Source: an uncultured archaeon (lineage in GTDB: Archaea > Halobacteriota > Methanosarcinia > Methanosarcinales > Methanoperedenaceae). Taken from it: a stretch of DNA of 39,603 nt. Below the pieces are notes generated by a model. The model had not been told where the DNA came from. It was given only the letters and a program-made list of their open reading frames with translations, and made no database searches. A program made the translations under genes and the position numbers. Shown piece after piece: positions 9,818 to 39,142 of the stretch (positions are counted from its first letter, which is position 1; each line of letters begins with the position of its first letter). The stretch is taken from NCBI GenBank assembly GCA_902386255.1, contig CABMII010000070.1, forward strand, positions 1-39,603, in the 5' to 3' direction.

Positions 9818-11263
9818 ATGCCCCCAATCTTTGAAATCCTCCACAAAGCCTGCGCCGGCCGCATCGGGCGCCTTGAGACCCGCCACGGGATTGTGGAAAC
9901 GCCCACCATCATGCCTGTGGTCAACCCCAATATCCAGACCATCAAGCCTTCAGAGCTTCGAAAATTCGGTGCCGAGATGATCATCACGAATTCTTATATC
10001 ATTTACCGAAAAGCCGAACTCAGGGAGCGCGCCCGCAGCGAGGGTTTGCATTCTCTTATCGGTTTTGACGGCCCCATAATGACCGATTCAGGTTCCTACC
10101 AGTTATCGGTGTACGGCGAAGTGGAAGTAAATAATGCAGAGATTGTCGGGTTCCAGCAGGAAATCGGTTCGGATATCGGCGTACCGCTTGACATACCCAC
10201 TCCTCCCGATGTCCCGCGCGCCCGCGCCGAAGAAGAGCTTGGAATCACATACAAGAGAGCAAAAGAAGCCCTCGGGTTAAAAAAGGACATGCTGTTAGCT
10301 GCACCGGTACAGGGTTCGACATATCCTGACCTGCGGGAGCAAGCTGCGCACGAGTTAAGCCGGCTTGATTTTGATGTCTATCCGCTTGGGGCTGTTGTGC
10401 CTCTTATGGAATCATACAGGTATTCCGACCTTGTGGATGTCATTGTGGCATCAAAAAAAGGTCTCTCCCCCGCAGCACCGGTGCATCTTTTCGGTGCAGG
10501 GCATCCAATGATGTTCTCGCTTGCGGTCGCATTGGGCTGCGATTTGTTCGATTCTGCCTCGTATGCCCTGTATGCCAAGGACGGGCGGTATATGACCGTG
10601 CGCGGCACTTACCACGTTGATAACCTCCAGTACCTTCCTTGCTCATGCCCGGTATGCGTATCTCATGATGCCAGTGAGCTGATTAAAAGCGATAAACGCG
10701 AAGAATTGCTGGCGCGCCATAATCTTTATGTGACTTTTCAGGAAATAAGGGAAGTCAAACAGGCGATAAGAGAGGGAAGCTTATGGGAACTCGTGGAGCA
10801 GCGGTGCAGGGCGCATCCGCAGTTGTTAAACGGCCTTAAGCGCGCGCTTCATTACTCGGATTGGATCGAGCAATTCCAGCCAGTTTCAAACTCTACATTT
10901 TTTTACAGCGGCCCTGAATCAGCGCTCCGACCCGAGGTGGTTCGGTACAGGAAGAAGCTTAAAAACCTGAAGCTTGAAGGCAAGGTGCTTATCAGGGCAA
11001 GAAAGCTTGGTAATGAAGATGATTTCGATTGGGTGCTTGATTTTAAACCGCCGTTTGGTCCGTATCCCATAGAACTAAAAGAAAATAGTCCTTTCAATGC
11101 TGAAGTAACTGATGAACCGGATTATGAATCTTTAACAGTCGCGCTTCAAAATACGATCGAGCTGATGGCGTTAAATCCTGAATCGGAATTTACGATTGTA
11201 TTGGAGGGGCTTCCCGAACATCCATTAATGACAGAAATCCAGAACCTTTTGCTCAGGAAATAG
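9818..11263 (+). CDS. tgtA: tRNA-guanine(15) transglycosylase, archaeosine pathway
   Basis: 481 residues. Exchanges guanine-15 in the D-loop of archaeal tRNAs for preQ0. D90-S-G-S-Y-Q is the catalytic/nucleophile region, and C-S-C-P-V-C with the downstream H are the zinc ligands. The C-terminal third matches the archaeal C1 domain rather than a PUA domain. The protein is shorter than full-length archaeal TgtA (around 580 residues), so PUA is absent and may be supplied by a separate protein, as in Methanosarcina-type genomes. It converges on ftsY with 7 bp between them. Confidence 0.93.
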   Translation: MPPIFEILHKACAGRIGRLETRHGIVETPTIMPVVNPNIQTIKPSELRKFGAEMIITNSYIIYRKAELRERARSEGLHSLIGFDGPIMTDSGSYQLSVYGEVEVNNAEIVGFQQEIGSDIGVPLDIPTPPDVPRARAEEELGITYKRAKEALGLKKDMLLAAPVQGSTYPDLREQAAHELSRLDFDVYPLGAVVPLMESYRYSDLVDVIVASKKGLSPAAPVHLFGAGHPMMFSLAVALGCDLFDSASYALYAKDGRYMTVRGTYHVDNLQYLPCSCPVCVSHDASELIKSDKREELLARHNLYVTFQEIREVKQAIREGSLWELVEQRCRAHPQLLNGLKRALHYSDWIEQFQPVSNSTFFYSGPESALRPEVVRYRKKLKNLKLEGKVLIRARKLGNEDDFDWVLDFKPPFGPYPIELKENSPFNAEVTDEPDYESLTVALQNTIELMALNPESEFTIVLEGLPEHPLMTEIQNLLLRK

Positions 11264-11270
11264 TTAATAA

Positions 11271-12377
11271 TTATTCAAACAACCGTGCAAGCAGCCACTG
11301 TGGTTCGAACTTCACAAGGTCTTTATACGTCTGCCCAACCCCCAGGAACAATATGGGCTTCCCCGTCGTGTAGGATATTGAAATTGCCGCCCCGCCTTTT
11401 GAGTCTGCATCCGCTTTTGTAAGAATGCTGCCGTTAAAAGGCACTGCGTTATTGAACAGCTTTGCGCGTTCAACCGCATCATTTCCTGCCACAGCTTCGT
11501 CCACAAAAATAATAAGGTCAGGCTGGTTGACTCTGCACACCTTCTTTAACTGGTCCATCAGGTTCACATTCGTGTGCATCCTGCCTGCCGTGTCTGCAAG
11601 CACGATATCCTTGTGCTTTGCCTTTGCGAATTGTACTGCGTCGTACACGATAGCCGCAGGGTCGGCGCCTTCCTGGTGTTTGATTATCTTGACGCCAAGA
11701 TTTTCTGCATGCCTGTCTATCTGTTCAATAGCCCCTGCTCGGAATGTGTCTGCGGCAGCGATAACTACCGAATATCCCTGCGCCATGAAACGCTCTGCCA
11801 TTTTGGCTACGGTGGTGGTTTTGCCTGTCCCGTTTACTCCTACAAAAACAATGCTCACGGGTTTTTTGGATTTCTTGATAAAATCATCAAAATCAAAAGA
11901 ATCAACAGAAATTACTTTTGAAATCGCGTTTTTTATAGCGGTTTCAACGATTTTCCCGGTATCAGAGCCGATTTTCCTGCGGCTTCCTACAAGTTCGCCT
12001 TTTACAGATTCCACTATTTTCTCGGCCACGGGCAGCGCCACATCGCTCTCAAGAAGCGCCATTTCAAGCTCCCATAAATGGTCTTTCAGGCTGCCCTCAT
12101 CGATGATGAACTCCTGTTCAAGAACCGCTGCCTTAATTTTATCAAATATGCCGATTTTTTCAGGCGCTTTTGCCGCGGGCTCGGGAGCTTTTGGTATCTC
12201 TTTTATCTCTTTTTTTACAGGAACTTCTTTTTTAATGGCTTCTGCTTTAACTGGTTCTGATTTAACAGGTTCTGCCCTGGCAGGCTCTGTTTTTATGACC
12301 TCTTTCTCTTTTTCTTCTATTACGCTGCCAAGAACTTTCTTAAAACTGCCAAGCTTTTCCTTTAGTTTTTCAAACAT
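11271..12377 (-). CDS. ftsY: Signal recognition particle receptor FtsY
   Basis: 368 residues. SRP receptor GTPase that docks ribosome-nascent chains at the membrane. An N-terminal Lys/Glu/Pro-rich acidic linker (residues 20-75) precedes the N domain. The G domain shows GVNGTGKT (180-187), DTFRAGA (210-216), DTAGR (262-266) and TKAD (320-323), with a final G-V-G-Q-x-x-x-D-L. It is third in the LX-pfdA-ftsY cluster, 15 bp after pfdA, a gene order conserved in many euryarchaea. Confidence 0.96.
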   Translation of the reverse strand: MFEKLKEKLGSFKKVLGSVIEEKEKEVIKTEPARAEPVKSEPVKAEAIKKEVPVKKEIKEIPKAPEPAAKAPEKIGIFDKIKAAVLEQEFIIDEGSLKDHLWELEMALLESDVALPVAEKIVESVKGELVGSRRKIGSDTGKIVETAIKNAISKVISVDSFDFDDFIKKSKKPVSIVFVGVNGTGKTTTVAKMAERFMAQGYSVVIAAADTFRAGAIEQIDRHAENLGVKIIKHQEGADPAAIVYDAVQFAKAKHKDIVLADTAGRMHTNVNLMDQLKKVCRVNQPDLIIFVDEAVAGNDAVERAKLFNNAVPFNGSILTKADADSKGGAAISISYTTGKPILFLGVGQTYKDLVKFEPQWLLARLFE

Positions 12378-26545: not shown

Positions 26546-26809
26546 TTACACCAACAGCACATCCCCCACCGTAAACACCAGCATGCACAAACTCACCGCC
26601 GCATTCACATTAAAGAACGCCACAGGAATATTCTCAAAATTATCAGCTTTCACAAGCGTATGCTCATACCATATCAGCGCCGCAATAATCACAAGCCCCG
26701 TCTTAAAAATAACCCCGAGCTTCAGCACAAACATCAACCCGACAAGCAGCAAGAGCATCATGACATGCGCCGCAAACGACAAATTAAGCGCCGATTTTAC
26801 AACGAACAC
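26546..26809 (-). pseudogene. Truncated duplicate of the ubiA 3' end
   Basis: The 87-residue frame repeats the last ~85 residues of the UbiA protein encoded 560 bp away (S-F-A-A-H-V-x-M-L-L-L-L-V-G-L-M-F...N-A-A-V-S-L-C-M-L). It lacks both Asp-rich catalytic motifs, so it cannot be an active prenyltransferase. DNA identity is high but not perfect over about 240 bp (26559-26805 versus 27113-27360). The divergence argues against an assembly artefact. Confidence 0.85.
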
Positions 26810-27099: not shown

Positions 27100-27975
27100 T
27101 TATCTCATCACCACATCCCCCACCGTAAACACCAGCATGCACAAACTCACCGCCGCATTCACATTAAAGAACGCCACAGGAATATTCTCAAAATTATCAG
27201 CCTTCACAAGGGTATGCTCATACCATATCAGCGCCGCAATGATCACAAGCCCAGCCTTAAAAACAACCCCAAGCTTCAGCACAAACATCAGCCCGACAAG
27301 CAGCAAGAGCATCAGGACATGCGCCGCAAACGACAAGTCGAGCGCCTTTTTCACCCCGAATACCGTTGGCACGGAATAAAGCCCGTTTTTTTTATCAAAA
27401 TCAAGGTCCTGAAGTGAGTATATCATATCAAAACCCGCAACCCACAAAGTGACTGCAAACAACAGCAGCAGCATCGCGCTCTCAGGCGCGCCGAACGGGA
27501 TATGGAAGGCGCCCGTCACAGCAAGCCAGCCCCCCACGGGAGCATAACCGAGATTAAGCCCAAGAACGAAATGCGGAATCGGGGTGAATCTTTTAAGACA
27601 CGGATAGATGACCGACGTAATAGGAATAATAGGAGAAAGCATAAGGCACAGCGGGTTCAGTTTATATGCGGAATAGAACAGCAGGACATAGGAAATCAGA
27701 ATAATCACCCATACCTCAAATAACGATATTCTACCCGATGGCAGTTCGCGTTTTGCTGTCCTTGGGTTTTTGGCATCGATATCCCTGTCAACCAGATTAT
27801 TCAGCGCCATTGCAGCGCTCCTCGCGCCTATGAATGCAAGCCCTACCCAGAAAAGAATGCGAAGCTCCGGTACTCCCCTGCTTGCAAGGAAAGCGCCAAG
27901 ATATGCAAACGGGATGGCAAACAGGCTGTGCTTCAGCACCACAAAATCAGCGTATAGTTTAAGTTTTTGGAACAT
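27100..27975 (-). CDS. UbiA-family prenyltransferase, likely menaquinone (MqnP-type)
   Basis: About 291 residues with roughly eight to nine transmembrane helices. The first Asp motif is N61-x2-D64-R-D66-x-D68 and the second is Y187-x3-D191-x-D193-x-D195, the Mg-diphosphate-binding motifs of UbiA enzymes. With a UbiD gene 0.8 kb away it resembles the MqnP/MqnL pair of the futalosine menaquinone route. That specificity is inferred from context. A GTG just before the ATG is an alternative start. Its 3' end is duplicated downstream. Confidence 0.88.
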   Translation of the reverse strand: MFQKLKLYADFVVLKHSLFAIPFAYLGAFLASRGVPELRILFWVGLAFIGARSAAMALNNLVDRDIDAKNPRTAKRELPSGRISLFEVWVIILISYVLLFYSAYKLNPLCLMLSPIIPITSVIYPCLKRFTPIPHFVLGLNLGYAPVGGWLAVTGAFHIPFGAPESAMLLLLFAVTLWVAGFDMIYSLQDLDFDKKNGLYSVPTVFGVKKALDLSFAAHVLMLLLLVGLMFVLKLGVVFKAGLVIIAALIWYEHTLVKADNFENIPVAFFNVNAAVSLCMLVFTVGDVVMR

Positions 27976-28019
27976 CACAAATCTTTTCTCTTATCACCGA
28001 TATTATCACCCTGATACAA

Positions 28020-28785: not shown

Positions 28786-30228
28786 CTAGAATCCCAGTTC
28801 CTTCCATATCTTATCCACGCGTGCTTTCACTTTTTCATCCATCTTTAAAGCATCAGGCCATTCCCTTTCGAAGCCCTCATCCTTTCCTTTCCGTGTCGCA
28901 TCGATACCCATCTTGGAGCCAAGATTCGGTAGCGGCGAAGCATGGTCAAGCGTATCTGTCGGCGCACTGTCGATTATCGTGACATCAGTTGCCGGGTTCA
29001 TGCGAGTGGTCGTAGCCCACAGTACTTCTTTTAAATCCTGCACGTTCACGTCGTCATCGAGTACAATTATTGTCTTGGCGAACATCATCTGCCCCATTCC
29101 CCACAGGGCGAACATGACCTTTTTAGCATGACCGGGATACCGCTTTTTTATTGACACGATGCAGAGGTTGTGGAAAACGGCTTCAACAGGCAGGTTGATG
29201 TCAACGATTTCGGGAAGCTGTGTCTTCATGAGAGGAAGGAATATCCTCTCGGTGGCTTTGCCAAGATACGCATCCTCCATCGGGGGGATTCCCACAACTG
29301 TTGCATGATAAATCGGGTTTTTGCGATGCGTGATGCAGGTTATATGGAACACAGGAAATTCATCTGCAAGCGAATAATATCCTGTATGGTCGCCGAAAGG
29401 CCCCTCGACACGCCGCTCCTTTGCATCCACGTATCCTTCCAGTATAATTTCGGCATGAGCAGGCACATAGAGGTCAACGGTTTCGCATTTGACAAGCTCT
29501 ACGTTCTTTTTGCGAAGGAACCCTGCAAACATCATCTCATCGATGCTATCGGGAAGCGGCGCAGTGGCCGAATAAACGACAGCCGGGTCGGCGCCGATGG
29601 CGACTGCGACCTCGATTTTTCCGTCTTTCGCCGCATCCGCATAATCCCGCGCGCCGTGTTTGTGGATGTGCCAGTGCATACCCGTGGTCTTGCCATCATA
29701 AACCTGCATCCTGTACATACCCACGTTCTGCTTACCGGTTTTGGGGTTTTTAGTGAATACAAGTGGGAGGGTGATGAACCGTCCGCCGTCCTCAGGCCAG
29801 CATTTCAATACCGGGAATTCATCCAGCGAAAAGCCTTCTTTGAGTATGACTTCTTTACATGGTCCACTGTTCACATGCTTTGGCGGGAAAGAGGTTATCT
29901 CTGCAACCTTCGGGATCATCTTGATACCTTCCCAGAGGCTTGAGGGCGCTTCGAATTCCAGCAGTTTCCGGATTCTCTCGCCGATTTCATCAAGGTTATT
30001 GACGCCAAGAGCAAGGCACATTCGTTCCATTGTTCCAAAAGCGTTGGCGAAAACCGGGTGCTTATAGCCTTTGACATTCTCGAATAACAGCGCAGGGCCA
30101 TTGTTTTTTACGACCCTGTCCAAAATCTCGGTTATCTCAAGCTCGGCGCTTACCTCGGTTTTTATGCGTTTGAGCAGTCCTTTTTTCTCGAGGACTTCGA
30201 TGAACTCGCGTAAATCTTTGTATGCCAC
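28786..30228 (-). CDS. UbiD-family decarboxylase, likely menaquinone (MqnL-type)
   Basis: 480 residues, the normal UbiD size. The prFMN-dependent decarboxylase core is visible: E-V-A-V-A-I-G-A-D-P near the middle, E-G-P-F-G-D-H-T-G-Y-Y-S carrying family catalytic residues, and a C-terminal D-P-A-T-D family equivalent (N-P-A-T-D-V-T-I). It starts at GTG, overlapping the stop of the 74-residue gene (TAGTG). No ubiX lies in the window. Pairing with the UbiA gene suggests quinone synthesis. Confidence 0.92.
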   Translation of the reverse strand: MAYKDLREFIEVLEKKGLLKRIKTEVSAELEITEILDRVVKNNGPALLFENVKGYKHPVFANAFGTMERMCLALGVNNLDEIGERIRKLLEFEAPSSLWEGIKMIPKVAEITSFPPKHVNSGPCKEVILKEGFSLDEFPVLKCWPEDGGRFITLPLVFTKNPKTGKQNVGMYRMQVYDGKTTGMHWHIHKHGARDYADAAKDGKIEVAVAIGADPAVVYSATAPLPDSIDEMMFAGFLRKKNVELVKCETVDLYVPAHAEIILEGYVDAKERRVEGPFGDHTGYYSLADEFPVFHITCITHRKNPIYHATVVGIPPMEDAYLGKATERIFLPLMKTQLPEIVDINLPVEAVFHNLCIVSIKKRYPGHAKKVMFALWGMGQMMFAKTIIVLDDDVNVQDLKEVLWATTTRMNPATDVTIIDSAPTDTLDHASPLPNLGSKMGIDATRKGKDEGFEREWPDALKMDEKVKARVDKIWKELGF

Positions 30229-30452
30229 TATACGACCCCGCTGTCATCCGACATCTTTGAGCCGGCTTTTTCAAGGCATGCTCTGTGGATGTATCCGAGC
30301 TGCCTTTTTTTCCAGTTCTTGGATTCGTTGCTCATGCCTTCCACGGGTTCGTAGACGATAAGCATGTTTTTTGCGTCCTCAGGGAACATGAGTTTCACAA
30401 AATCGCCGCATAGCAGGCATTTTTTCCATCGTGTGTATTTTCGTTCGGTCAT
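30228..30452 (-). CDS. Small Cys-containing protein upstream of ubiD
   Basis: 74 residues. K-K-C-L-L-C-G near the N-terminus and I-H-R-A-C-L-E-K-A-G later would make a C-x2-C...H-x3-C metal site. It is basic and Trp-containing, with no recognised family. Its stop overlaps the ubiD GTG by one base, so the two are co-translated. Its promoter region holds the first CCGTWACGG array. Confidence 0.7.
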   Translation of the reverse strand: MTERKYTRWKKCLLCGDFVKLMFPEDAKNMLIVYEPVEGMSNESKNWKKRQLGYIHRACLEKAGSKMSDDSGVV

Positions 30453-30465
30453 AATTATGCTTACT

Positions 30466-30553
30466 GCGTTACGGGAATATATAAAGATGCCGTTACGGTA
30501 TTTTTATTAAAAAATCTCCGTTACGGAAATATGATGAGTTAATAGCGTAACGG
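30466..30553. repeat. CCGTWACGG array 1
   Basis: Four sites: GCGTTACGG 30466, CCGTTACGG 30490, CCGTTACGG 30518 and GCGTAACGG 30545. Starts are 24, 28 and 27 bp apart. A TATA-like TTTATATATTC on the reverse strand (30475-30485) lies between sites 1 and 2, so the array overlaps the promoter of the 74-residue gene/ubiD operon. Confidence 0.85.
30475..30485 (-). promoter_or_regulatory. TATA box of the ubiD operon
   Basis: The reverse strand reads TTTATATATTC, ending 22 nt before the ATG at 30452, consistent with a leaderless archaeal transcript. It is flanked directly by array-1 sites, so occupancy of those sites should affect transcription. Confidence 0.45.
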
Positions 30554-30604: not shown

Positions 30605-31177
30605 CTACACATTTTTAAATACTTTTACGAAAAGGCTGCTTTCAGAAATTTTGCTCTCGGTTTTGACCCCATAAGTTTCAAACACGCTTTCAATCACGAT
30701 ATTGATCATTTTAGAACTATTAATGCCCAGGGTATGGGTCATTTTCAGCGTGTATTGGTTACCATCGTCTGTGTAATTTATTGTATCGAACCAGTTTGAT
30801 ATCTTGGCATTGATGACTATTCCATCAATAACTTCTTTCAAACTACACTCTTTAAGAGGCTTCTGATAATAGTACTCTATTACGCATTCTATTGGTTTCT
30901 GGTGGGATACATACTCTATGTACCGTCCAATATCAGCCGTTCCTATCAGCTCTTTTAAACCATCTTTCTGGATAAGACATGCTGATTTTACTTCCCTGCC
31001 TGTACGCATCCAGAGCTCCTCTTCCCGAGACATCTCATGAGCCTGTTTTACGCCGTTCTCAAGACCCTCAAGCGCATACTCTATGACCTTTTGCTGTGTC
31101 TCAAACTCTGCTGTATGCTTTTTGAGTAATTCCCAGTGCTTCGGAGAGATTGTAGTGGATATGCGACGCTTCTTCAT
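30605..31177 (-). CDS. Ribbon-helix-helix regulator with unknown C-terminal domain
   Basis: 190 residues from the ATG at 31177 (a TTG three codons upstream is the longer option). Residues 3-41 (R-R-I-S-T-T-I-S-P-K-H-W-E-L-L-K-K-H...V-I-E-Y-A-L-E-G-L) fit a ribbon-helix-helix DNA-binding domain. The remaining 140 residues are unrecognised, probably a sensing or oligomerisation domain. An inverted repeat ACACATT (31227-31233) and AATGTGT (31254-31260) upstream could be its operator. The gene lies between array 1 and the divergent surface-protein gene. Confidence 0.75.
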   Translation of the reverse strand: MKKRRISTTISPKHWELLKKHTAEFETQQKVIEYALEGLENGVKQAHEMSREEELWMRTGREVKSACLIQKDGLKELIGTADIGRYIEYVSHQKPIECVIEYYYQKPLKECSLKEVIDGIVINAKISNWFDTINYTDDGNQYTLKMTHTLGINSSKMINIVIESVFETYGVKTESKISESSLFVKVFKNV

Positions 31178-31314
31178 AATATCCAAACCGCGTTATGCTT
31201 TATTTATCTTTCCATGCGCATGACATACACACATTGTGAGGATAATCTATATGATAATGTGTATAACTCATGTTTATTTTCCCTGTCCAATTTAAAAAGT
31301 CTGGAATGTTTGGT

Positions 31315-37706: not shown

Positions 37707-37812
37707 CTTTATAAAAAATTAATTCCATGGTAATAATTGTTAGAGACACCTGCTCTGAGTTTACATCAACCGTAAGCTATAAATACCATCGTTCGTATAT
37801 ACACGAATTGTT

Positions 37813-37869
37813 GTGGGCAGGGAAAAACTTTTTTAACCATACCACCACCATAATCCCCTTCCTGCCCAC
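37813..37869. repeat. Inverted repeat in the gap before xerA
   Basis: GTGGGCAGG (37813-37821) and CCTGCCCAC (37861-37869) form a 9-bp stem around a 39-nt loop. The 283-bp gap also carries a TATA-like word near 37780 and array 2 at its right end. I see no convincing gene there. Confidence 0.5.
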
Positions 37870-37898
37870 TAACCTCCTTATGATGACAAAATTCGATG

Positions 37899-37986
37899 CC
37901 GTTACGGAAATTAATAAATGTATCCCGTAACGGTATTTACTAATAAAAAACCCGTTACGGAATGTTTTACTGTAAATCCGTTACGC
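37899..37986. repeat. CCGTWACGG array 2
   Basis: Sites start at 37899 (CCGTTACGG), 37925 (CCGTAACGG), 37952 (CCGTTACGG) and 37978 (CCGTTACGC). Spacing is 26, 27 and 26 bp. The array ends 3 bp from the xerA stop codon. Each spacer is AT-rich, and site 2 is followed by TATT as in the other two arrays. Confidence 0.9.
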
Positions 37987-37989
37987 AAT

Positions 37990-38826
37990 TCACAGCATAT
38001 CCAGCGGGCTTTTAATCTTCTTTATCTCCTCGCTGGAAACCTGGGTATAAATCTGTGTGGTCTGCAAATTCGAGTGACCGAGAAGCTTCTGTATTTTCCT
38101 GATGTCCACGCCGTTTTCAAGCAGGTGCGTGGCGAATGAATGCCGCAGAGTGTGGACATGAACATCTTTTTCTATCCCGGCCCTTTCTGCTGAAACCTTT
38201 ATCGCATGCTGTATGCCGCGCGGCGACATTTTCTTCCCGTTTACCGAGAAAATGAGTCCCTTGCCATCGGCTCCAGTCTTTTCCTGGTACTCAAGAAGGT
38301 CTTTCCTGAACATCTCTGAAACTATGAATATCCTGTCCTTTGCGCCTTTCCCCATGCGCACCCACCCGATTCCGTCGTTTACGTCAAGGTCCGAGTATTT
38401 CAGGTTAATACATTCCGAAAGCCGAAGCCCTGTTGAGTAAAGTAGTTCGATTAGCAGCCTGTGCTTTTCATTTTTAGTATTATCCAGCAGGTCATGTATT
38501 TCCCTGCGACTGAGTATGACGGGCAGCTTTTTCGATGCCTTTGGTGTTTTTATGAGCGAAAGGTTTTTTCCAAGCATGTCTGTATAAAAAAATTTTAGTG
38601 AGGCTTTTATCAACGCAATTGAAGCGTTTGACAATGAATGGTCTGACATCTTGTAAGCAAGAAATTCCTTTATGTCGTCATCACTAATTTCTTCGGGGGA
38701 TTTGTTTATATATTCAAGGAACTTGCGATTGTAGAAGAGGTACATCTTTGAGGTCTGCTTTGAAAAACCTCGCAGTTTCAGCTCAGTCTCAAGCTTTTTT
38801 AATGTTGATGGCAGTTCTATTGTCAT
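37990..38826 (-). CDS. xerA: Tyrosine recombinase XerA
   Basis: 278 residues, the size of archaeal XerA. The catalytic set is complete: R135 (T-G-L-R-L-S-E), K160 (G-K-G-A-K), H225 and R228 (H-T-L-R-H), H251 (L-G-H-S-N) and the nucleophile Y260 (Q-I-Y-T). The N-terminal SAM-like core-binding domain spans ~1-95. A perfect dif-like site is 32 bp upstream of the start, and CCGTWACGG arrays lie on both sides. A chromosome-dimer-resolving role is likely; an integrase of a lost element is the alternative. Confidence 0.95.
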   Translation of the reverse strand: MTIELPSTLKKLETELKLRGFSKQTSKMYLFYNRKFLEYINKSPEEISDDDIKEFLAYKMSDHSLSNASIALIKASLKFFYTDMLGKNLSLIKTPKASKKLPVILSRREIHDLLDNTKNEKHRLLIELLYSTGLRLSECINLKYSDLDVNDGIGWVRMGKGAKDRIFIVSEMFRKDLLEYQEKTGADGKGLIFSVNGKKMSPRGIQHAIKVSAERAGIEKDVHVHTLRHSFATHLLENGVDIRKIQKLLGHSNLQTTQIYTQVSSEEIKKIKSPLDML

Positions 38827-38849: not shown

Positions 38850-38861
38850 GGTATATAAAAA
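38850..38861 (-). promoter_or_regulatory. TATA box of xerA
   Basis: The reverse strand reads TTTTTATATACC, ending 23 nt before the ATG, so the transcript is probably leaderless. The first bases overlap the left arm of the dif-like site, which implies that XerA binding could repress its own gene. Confidence 0.5.
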
Positions 38862-38891
38862 CTGCGTATAATCTATCTTATACGCAGTTTT
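38858..38891. other. dif-like Xer recombination site
   Basis: AAAACTGCGTATAA (38858-38871), spacer TCTATC, TTATACGCAGTTTT (38878-38891): perfect 14-bp arms around a 6-bp spacer. Arms ending in TATAA/TTATA with a 6-bp centre are the known architecture of bacterial and archaeal dif sites. It lies directly upstream of xerA. Confidence 0.75.
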
Positions 38892-39053: not shown

Positions 39054-39142
39054 CCGTAACGGAATTAAGTTTGATAATTTCCGTAACGGTATTGTTTAAA
39101 GAATTTACCGTAACGGATTTTAGTTACCAAGCCCCGTTACGG
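39054..39142. repeat. CCGTWACGG array 3
   Basis: Sites start at 39054, 39081 and 39108 (all CCGTAACGG) and at 39134 (CCGTTACGG). Spacing is 27, 27 and 26 bp. The array ends 11 bp from the stop codon of the reverse-strand DUF3147-like gene and lies 163 bp from the dif-like site. Confidence 0.9.

Follow-up and report, generated by a model that had tools for sequence, protein, structure and literature searches.

A single dif-like site upstream of xerA in Candidatus Methanoperedens is accompanied by phased arrays of CCGTWACGG repeats

The window analysed here, a 39,603-nt stretch, is an entire contig (C70) of a 2.6-Mb Candidatus Methanoperedens MAG in 172 contigs, whose closest relatives are Candidatus Methanoperedens (ANME-2d) genomes; no closed genome for the genus was found among the collections searched. 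The window carries a dif-like inverted repeat, a gene for an archaeal XerA tyrosine recombinase whose start lies 31 bp from that repeat, three arrays of a short CCGTWACGG repeat and a gene for a 74-aa Cys/His protein (Table 1). The remaining genes look chromosomal. They include two named by eye, for an SRP-receptor-like GTPase (11271-12377) and an archaeosine tRNA-guanine transglycosylase-like protein (9818-11263), and two assigned with Pfam, for the RNase P subunit Rpr2 and UbiA. A fragment at 26546-26809 (- strand) repeats the C-terminal portion of the UbiA prenyltransferase encoded next to it (27100-27978, - strand).

Table 1. Positions of the dif-like site, xerA, the repeat arrays and the small Cys/His protein gene in the window
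Feature	Position	Strand	Remarks
dif-like site	38858..38891	.	28-bp core at 38861-38888, arms extended to 14 bp
xerA, 278 aa, archaeal XerA tyrosine recombinase	37990..38826	-	NF040815, PF00589, 4a8e
TATA-like box of xerA, TATATAAA	38852..38859	-	from sequence; layout common to most relatives
Array A1, four CCGTWACGG repeats, spacing 27/27/26 bp	39054..39142	.	upstream of dif
Array A2, four repeats, the last being CCGTTACGC, spacing 26/27/26 bp	37899..37986	.	behind xerA
Array A3, four repeats, two of them exact CCGTTACGG, spacing 24/28/27 bp	30466..30553	.	
Gene for 74-aa Cys/His (zinc-finger-like) protein, candidate array-binding factor	30228..30452	-	

The dif-like site reads AAAACTGCGTATAA-TCTATC-TTATACGCAGTTTT, with two 14-bp arms (38858-38871 and 38878-38891) that are 100% complementary and flank a 6-bp spacer. 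The 28-bp core within it consists of the two 11-bp inverted arms (ACTGCGTATAA and TTATACGCAGT) and the 6-bp spacer (TCTATC) by which an archaeal Xer/dif site is recognised. The perfect 14-bp arms, the spacer length and the TATAA/TTATA inner ends described in the original prediction were all borne out. The chance expectation for a perfect inverted repeat of this kind (14-bp arms, 6-bp spacer) is about 0.0002 per window and 0.014 per genome, and none appeared in 60 dinucleotide shuffles. Searching with up to three mismatches revealed no further copies in the 39,603-nt window, and the generalised pattern ANNNCGTATAA-N6-TTATACGNNNT with up to two mismatches occurred once in the whole 2.6-Mb genome; the many copies that had been feared as a refutation were absent, the source genome having just one site. 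The bare TATAA-N6-TTATA core is common, occurring at 15 places in the genome, and the specificity of the site therefore resides in its long arms. A viral carrier of the site was considered and rejected, as the full ACTGCG-type arms had no exact match in IMG/VR; patterns with shorter arms were too loose to use in that search.

The xerA product scored 266 bits against NCBIfam recomb_XerA_Arch (NF040815), passing the curated cut-off of 220, and also matched PF00589; its best solved relative was Pyrococcus abyssi XerA (4a8e, E=5.6e-48). The R-K-H-R-H/W-Y residues that characterise XerA-type tyrosine recombinases of archaeal Xer/dif systems were all present (R135, K163, H225-x-x-R228, H251 and Y260; motif positions computed, residues read from the sequence). 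Contigs C89, C153 and C81 of G000 carry three more XerA-like tyrosine recombinases, which fell below the XerA cut-off and are possibly mobile-element integrases.

Within the genus, the generalised 28-bp pattern (up to two mismatches) had matches in 28 of the 31 genomes, among them all 19 good-quality ones, part of these matches being weak look-alikes at other places. Sites were called as dif by their proximity to xerA, or to a repeat array where xerA lay apart, which gave sites in 29 genomes. With one copy in the source genome and matching sites in relatives, the site was found as an archaeal dif should be. The inner ends TATAA and TTATA were near-invariant (28-29 of 29 sites), and arm positions 2-6 varied with both arms in step (ACTGCG, ATGTCG, AGTACG, ACTGTA). 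Identical arms were found in 20 of the 29 sites, against a mean of 9.6 and a maximum of 17 when arms were re-dealt among sites (5000 shuffles, which ignore kinship). The spacer was free, with 17 forms among the 29 sites. Near-fixed inner ends, co-changing arms and a drifting spacer are what would be expected of a dif site that recombines with itself through a single homodimeric recombinase; an element's attachment site would require a partner, and for an operator there would be no call for a spacer fixed at 6 bp. The identification of the site as dif, made in the original prediction, is well supported by its singleness, the matching sites in relatives, the co-varying arms, the free spacer and the presence of XerA.

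Comparison of spacers between sister or close genomes revealed four pairs that are exact reverse complements: G001/G003, G018/G019, G012/G028 and G023/G027 (loci L211/L213, L228/L229, L223/L236 and L232/L235, respectively). In the G001/G003 pair the spacers are TATTTG and CAAATA, and the flanks are collinear and nearly identical. The spacer seems to invert in place, either via XerA acting on the symmetric site or by loop inversion of the short palindrome.

The TATA-like box of xerA and the outer end of the dif-like site share 2 bp, confirming the overlap that had been claimed. Because the site abuts this box, autoregulation of xerA, which had been proposed on the same grounds, is possible in the source genome; the arrangement is not conserved among relatives, eight of which have dif 218-566 bp from the xerA start and one on another contig, the site being kept throughout. 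At three loci with dif away from xerA (L031, L032 and L034), the xerA promoter carries an apparent decayed half-site, e.g., TTAGACGGAGTTTTTATATA compared with TTATACGCAGTTTTTATATA, possibly a relic of an ancestral dif at that position.

The original prediction had recognised the dif-like site and missed the repeat arrays that travel with it. The array unit is CCGTTACGG/CCGTAACGG, repeated about every 27 bp; the nearest repeat of A1 is about 183 bp from the dif centre, and A2 ends 3 bp past the xerA stop. To our knowledge, the CCGTWACGG motif is not recognisable as an ArgR box. The genome contains 16 exact copies of CCGTTACGG, nine of them inside 8.7 kb of the window and the other seven as singles on other contigs. 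Pairs or longer arrays were found in 29 of 31 genus genomes, and triplet arrays were confined to two of the 39 genera in the class (26 of 238 genomes); a reversed-pattern control gave no triplet arrays in those genomes. Among the matches listed, the sequence between repeats differed between genomes, and it is therefore the phased cores themselves that are kept. Nearly all listed arrays lie by dif, at the promoter of the gene for the 74-aa protein (hereafter the small gene) or at the dcd promoter; G012 has two repeat pairs (C85 and C158) outside these settings.

The array follows dif, and not xerA or any neighbouring gene, as indicated by its largely preserved distance from dif, its separation from xerA in G014 and the changing genes around it. 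The nearest repeat lay 157-208 bp from the dif centre in 18 of the 27 genomes, some of which have dif 481-519 bp from xerA, and the dif-xerA distance ranged from 48 to 566 bp across the same comparison. In G014, contig C117 has xerA but neither dif nor repeats, and contig C61 has dif with a nine-repeat array 177 bp away that is intergenic and at no gene start. The gene beyond the array, judged by eye, varies by genome (dcd, cdc6, an ERCC4-type nuclease, a nitrogenase-Fe-protein-like gene, a CDC48-type ATPase or rpS8e) and often turns its 3' end toward the array; in about nine genomes only a 3' end faces it. The spacing is not strictly fixed, reaching 477 bp, and no clear signal of helical phasing was observed in the dif-array distance. 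In G003, no array was present upstream of dif within 2.6 kb, the only one being on the xerA side.

Alignment of the 74-aa protein revealed invariant C12, C15, H56 and C59 and many basic residues. The protein is encoded in single copy in 29 of 31 genus genomes and, of the 24 genera in the order, only in g1 and g2, which are the two array-bearing genera; protein and arrays co-occur within this one clade only, so that their co-occurrence is phylogenetically confounded. In 27 of 29 genomes, the small-gene TATA box is flanked by repeats of the CCGTAACG type, at around -44 and/or -20 relative to the start; these are kept even where the gene is far from dif or on another contig; in the window, two A3 repeats bracket this TATA box (30476-30485). 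The exceptions are the sister genomes G001 and G003, whose upstream dif arrays are weak or absent. Such flanking of the TATA box would be the layout of an autoregulated DNA-binding protein, and the 74-aa Cys/His protein is the best candidate and most likely the binder of the arrays. It had no Pfam match and no relative in IMG/VR; its fold model was poor (pLDDT 63), and a search with that model gave no significant PDB match. Beside A3, a 193-aa protein (30605-31186, - strand) with an apparent ribbon-helix-helix N-terminus (RRISTTISPKHWELLKKH) is patchy in the genus and had no Pfam match above the cut-off; it was rejected as the array binder, being present in only 11 of 31 genomes.

We favour, with moderate confidence, the interpretation that the site at 38858-38891 is the single chromosomal dif and that the CCGTWACGG array is its accessory element, bound by a helper protein and controlling XerA recombination. 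A XerA homodimer would occupy dif with one monomer per arm, and two XerA-bound sites would synapse and be cleaved at the spacer edges, resolving chromosome dimers. The 27-bp phased arrays would bind an accessory protein and form a nucleoprotein structure beside dif, which would control recombination or give it an orientation in this FtsK-less archaeon; the small Cys/His protein would be that binder and would also regulate its own repeat-bracketed promoter. Archaea have no FtsK homologue (PMC2958812), and the array that almost always accompanies dif in Methanoperedens suggests that a dedicated helper protein may act here in the absence of FtsK. More tentatively, and at less than an even chance, the array-bearing lineage may have evolved a dif with built-in accessory DNA and an autoregulated zinc-finger binder that would stand in for FtsK by setting the direction or timing of XerA action.

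A purely transcriptional role of the repeats stays a live alternative because they also occur at the small-gene and dcd promoters. On this account, which we consider rather unlikely overall, the dif site is of the usual archaeal kind, and the arrays serve as repressor operators for xerA, dcd and the small zinc-finger gene, brought together in an ancestral gene cluster. The bracketing of the small-gene TATA box agrees with it, as do the repeats upstream of dcd starts, which are found even where dcd and dif are no longer neighbours, and the neighbourhood of dcd, xerA and the small gene in several genomes. It does not account for dif arrays that are kept where xerA is some 500 bp away or on a different contig and where dcd is missing, for the roughly nine genomes in which only a gene 3' end faces the array, for the G014 array at no promoter, or for the second array behind the xerA stop, which is no promoter position.

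The arrays could instead be a centromere-like (parS/SegB-type) or terminus-organising (matS-like) element that serves segregation or chromosome organisation and shares the region with dif by chance, which we regard as improbable. Several arrays spread across 1-10 kb in one region per genome with 26-27 bp phasing, together with a lineage-specific small protein whose promoter resembles that of an autoregulated gene, would suit such an element, but no ParA/SegA-like gene is fixed beside the arrays, and a pure centromere leaves the preserved dif-array distance unexplained. On three of the four long contigs, the cumulative GC skew also peaks within about 20 kb of dif, which points in this direction, though the peak is local and weak. 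GC skew itself showed no clean switch at dif on the four long contigs and was equally flat at the orc1 gene; since no switch was seen at orc1 either, the test has no power here. For placing dif at the replication terminus, as suggested in the original prediction, neither GC skew nor strand bias had discriminating power.

A reading of the palindrome as an operator, bound by XerA or by some other repressor, or as a terminator hairpin in the promoter of xerA, with no recombination involved, is very improbable: the palindrome abuts the xerA TATA box in the source genome and most relatives, but the 28-bp site with its 6-bp spacer is kept far from xerA or on another contig, its spacer is free and inverted between sister genomes, and it has the full Xer half-site geometry. 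The repeats were rejected as origin recognition boxes placing dif at a replication origin, a notion that is hardly credible, since the main orc1 gene of G001 has different, canonical ORB-like repeats (TTCCAGTTGAAATAAAGGGG) upstream and no CCGTWACGG array, the ORB consensus with an adjacent orc1/cdc6 gene that identifies an archaeal origin was not found at dif, and cdc6, of which a paralogue lies 0.7 kb from dif in G022 (a second orc1/cdc6 gene; C30, L231) and 27 kb from it in G030, is not near dif in other genomes.

The literature searched yielded no case of a phased repeat array linked to a chromosomal dif in archaea, and we know of no repeat array at XerS/difSL or XerH/difH. With the archaeal XerA/dif systems of P. 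abyssi and Thermoplasma acidophilum, the Methanoperedens system has in common a single XerA, one 28-bp site per genome, 11-bp arms, a 6-bp spacer and few or no arm mismatches (PMC2958812, PMC8371274). In Thermococcales, dif is not beside xerA and has AT-rich flanks of about 23 bp, with no mention of a phased repeat array (PMC2958812), whereas Methanoperedens dif mostly sits at the xerA promoter and has a 27-bp phased array. In Sulfolobales, dif is close to xerA as here, but the only conserved flank described for it is 13 bp long and on one side, as opposed to the array found here (PMC2958812). Proximity of dif to xerA was already known.

Among bacterial systems, XerS/difSL of streptococci and lactococci and XerH/difH also employ a single recombinase, and XerS is genetically linked to its own site; however, the XerS site is an atypical 31-bp sequence, and these recombinase families differ from XerA (PMC5357621). 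The plasmid sites cer (ColE1) and psi (pSC101) combine a short Xer core of 30 bp with about 180 bp of neighbouring accessory DNA bound by PepA with ArgR or ArcA (PMC5357621), and the repeats described here begin about 160-200 bp from the dif core. As an accessory element, the array would resemble the logic of cer and psi; it differs from them in being chromosomal and archaeal, in its repeat motif and in having a candidate binder only, where cer and psi use ArgR/PepA or ArcA/PepA. What pushes Xer recombination toward resolution in archaea, which have no FtsK homologue, has yet to be settled (PMC8371274). With a conserved array linked to dif and a named candidate binder for it, the question can be addressed directly using two small proteins and short DNA substrates. 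The dif site is also a candidate locus for the chromosome terminus or a segregation region in ANME-2d archaea.

Two further observations concern the surroundings of the repeats. CCGTWACGG-type repeats occur just upstream of dcd (dCTP deaminase), for example at about 18690-18745 in L214, about 8246-8305 in L243 and G025:C2:36613-36671, adjoining dif in one clade and lying 11-12 kb or a contig away from it in another, suggesting a small regulon. Within the window, a conserved non-coding block at 37760-37875 comprises a TATA-like CCGTAAACTATAAATA, a palindrome TTCGTATATATACGAA and a hairpin GTGGGCAG...CTGCCCAC. No Rfam matches were obtained in the 30-39.6 kb region that includes it. The same block adjoins arrays in L216, L221, L226, L229, L230, L232, L233, L237 and L240, and it looks like a small RNA gene.
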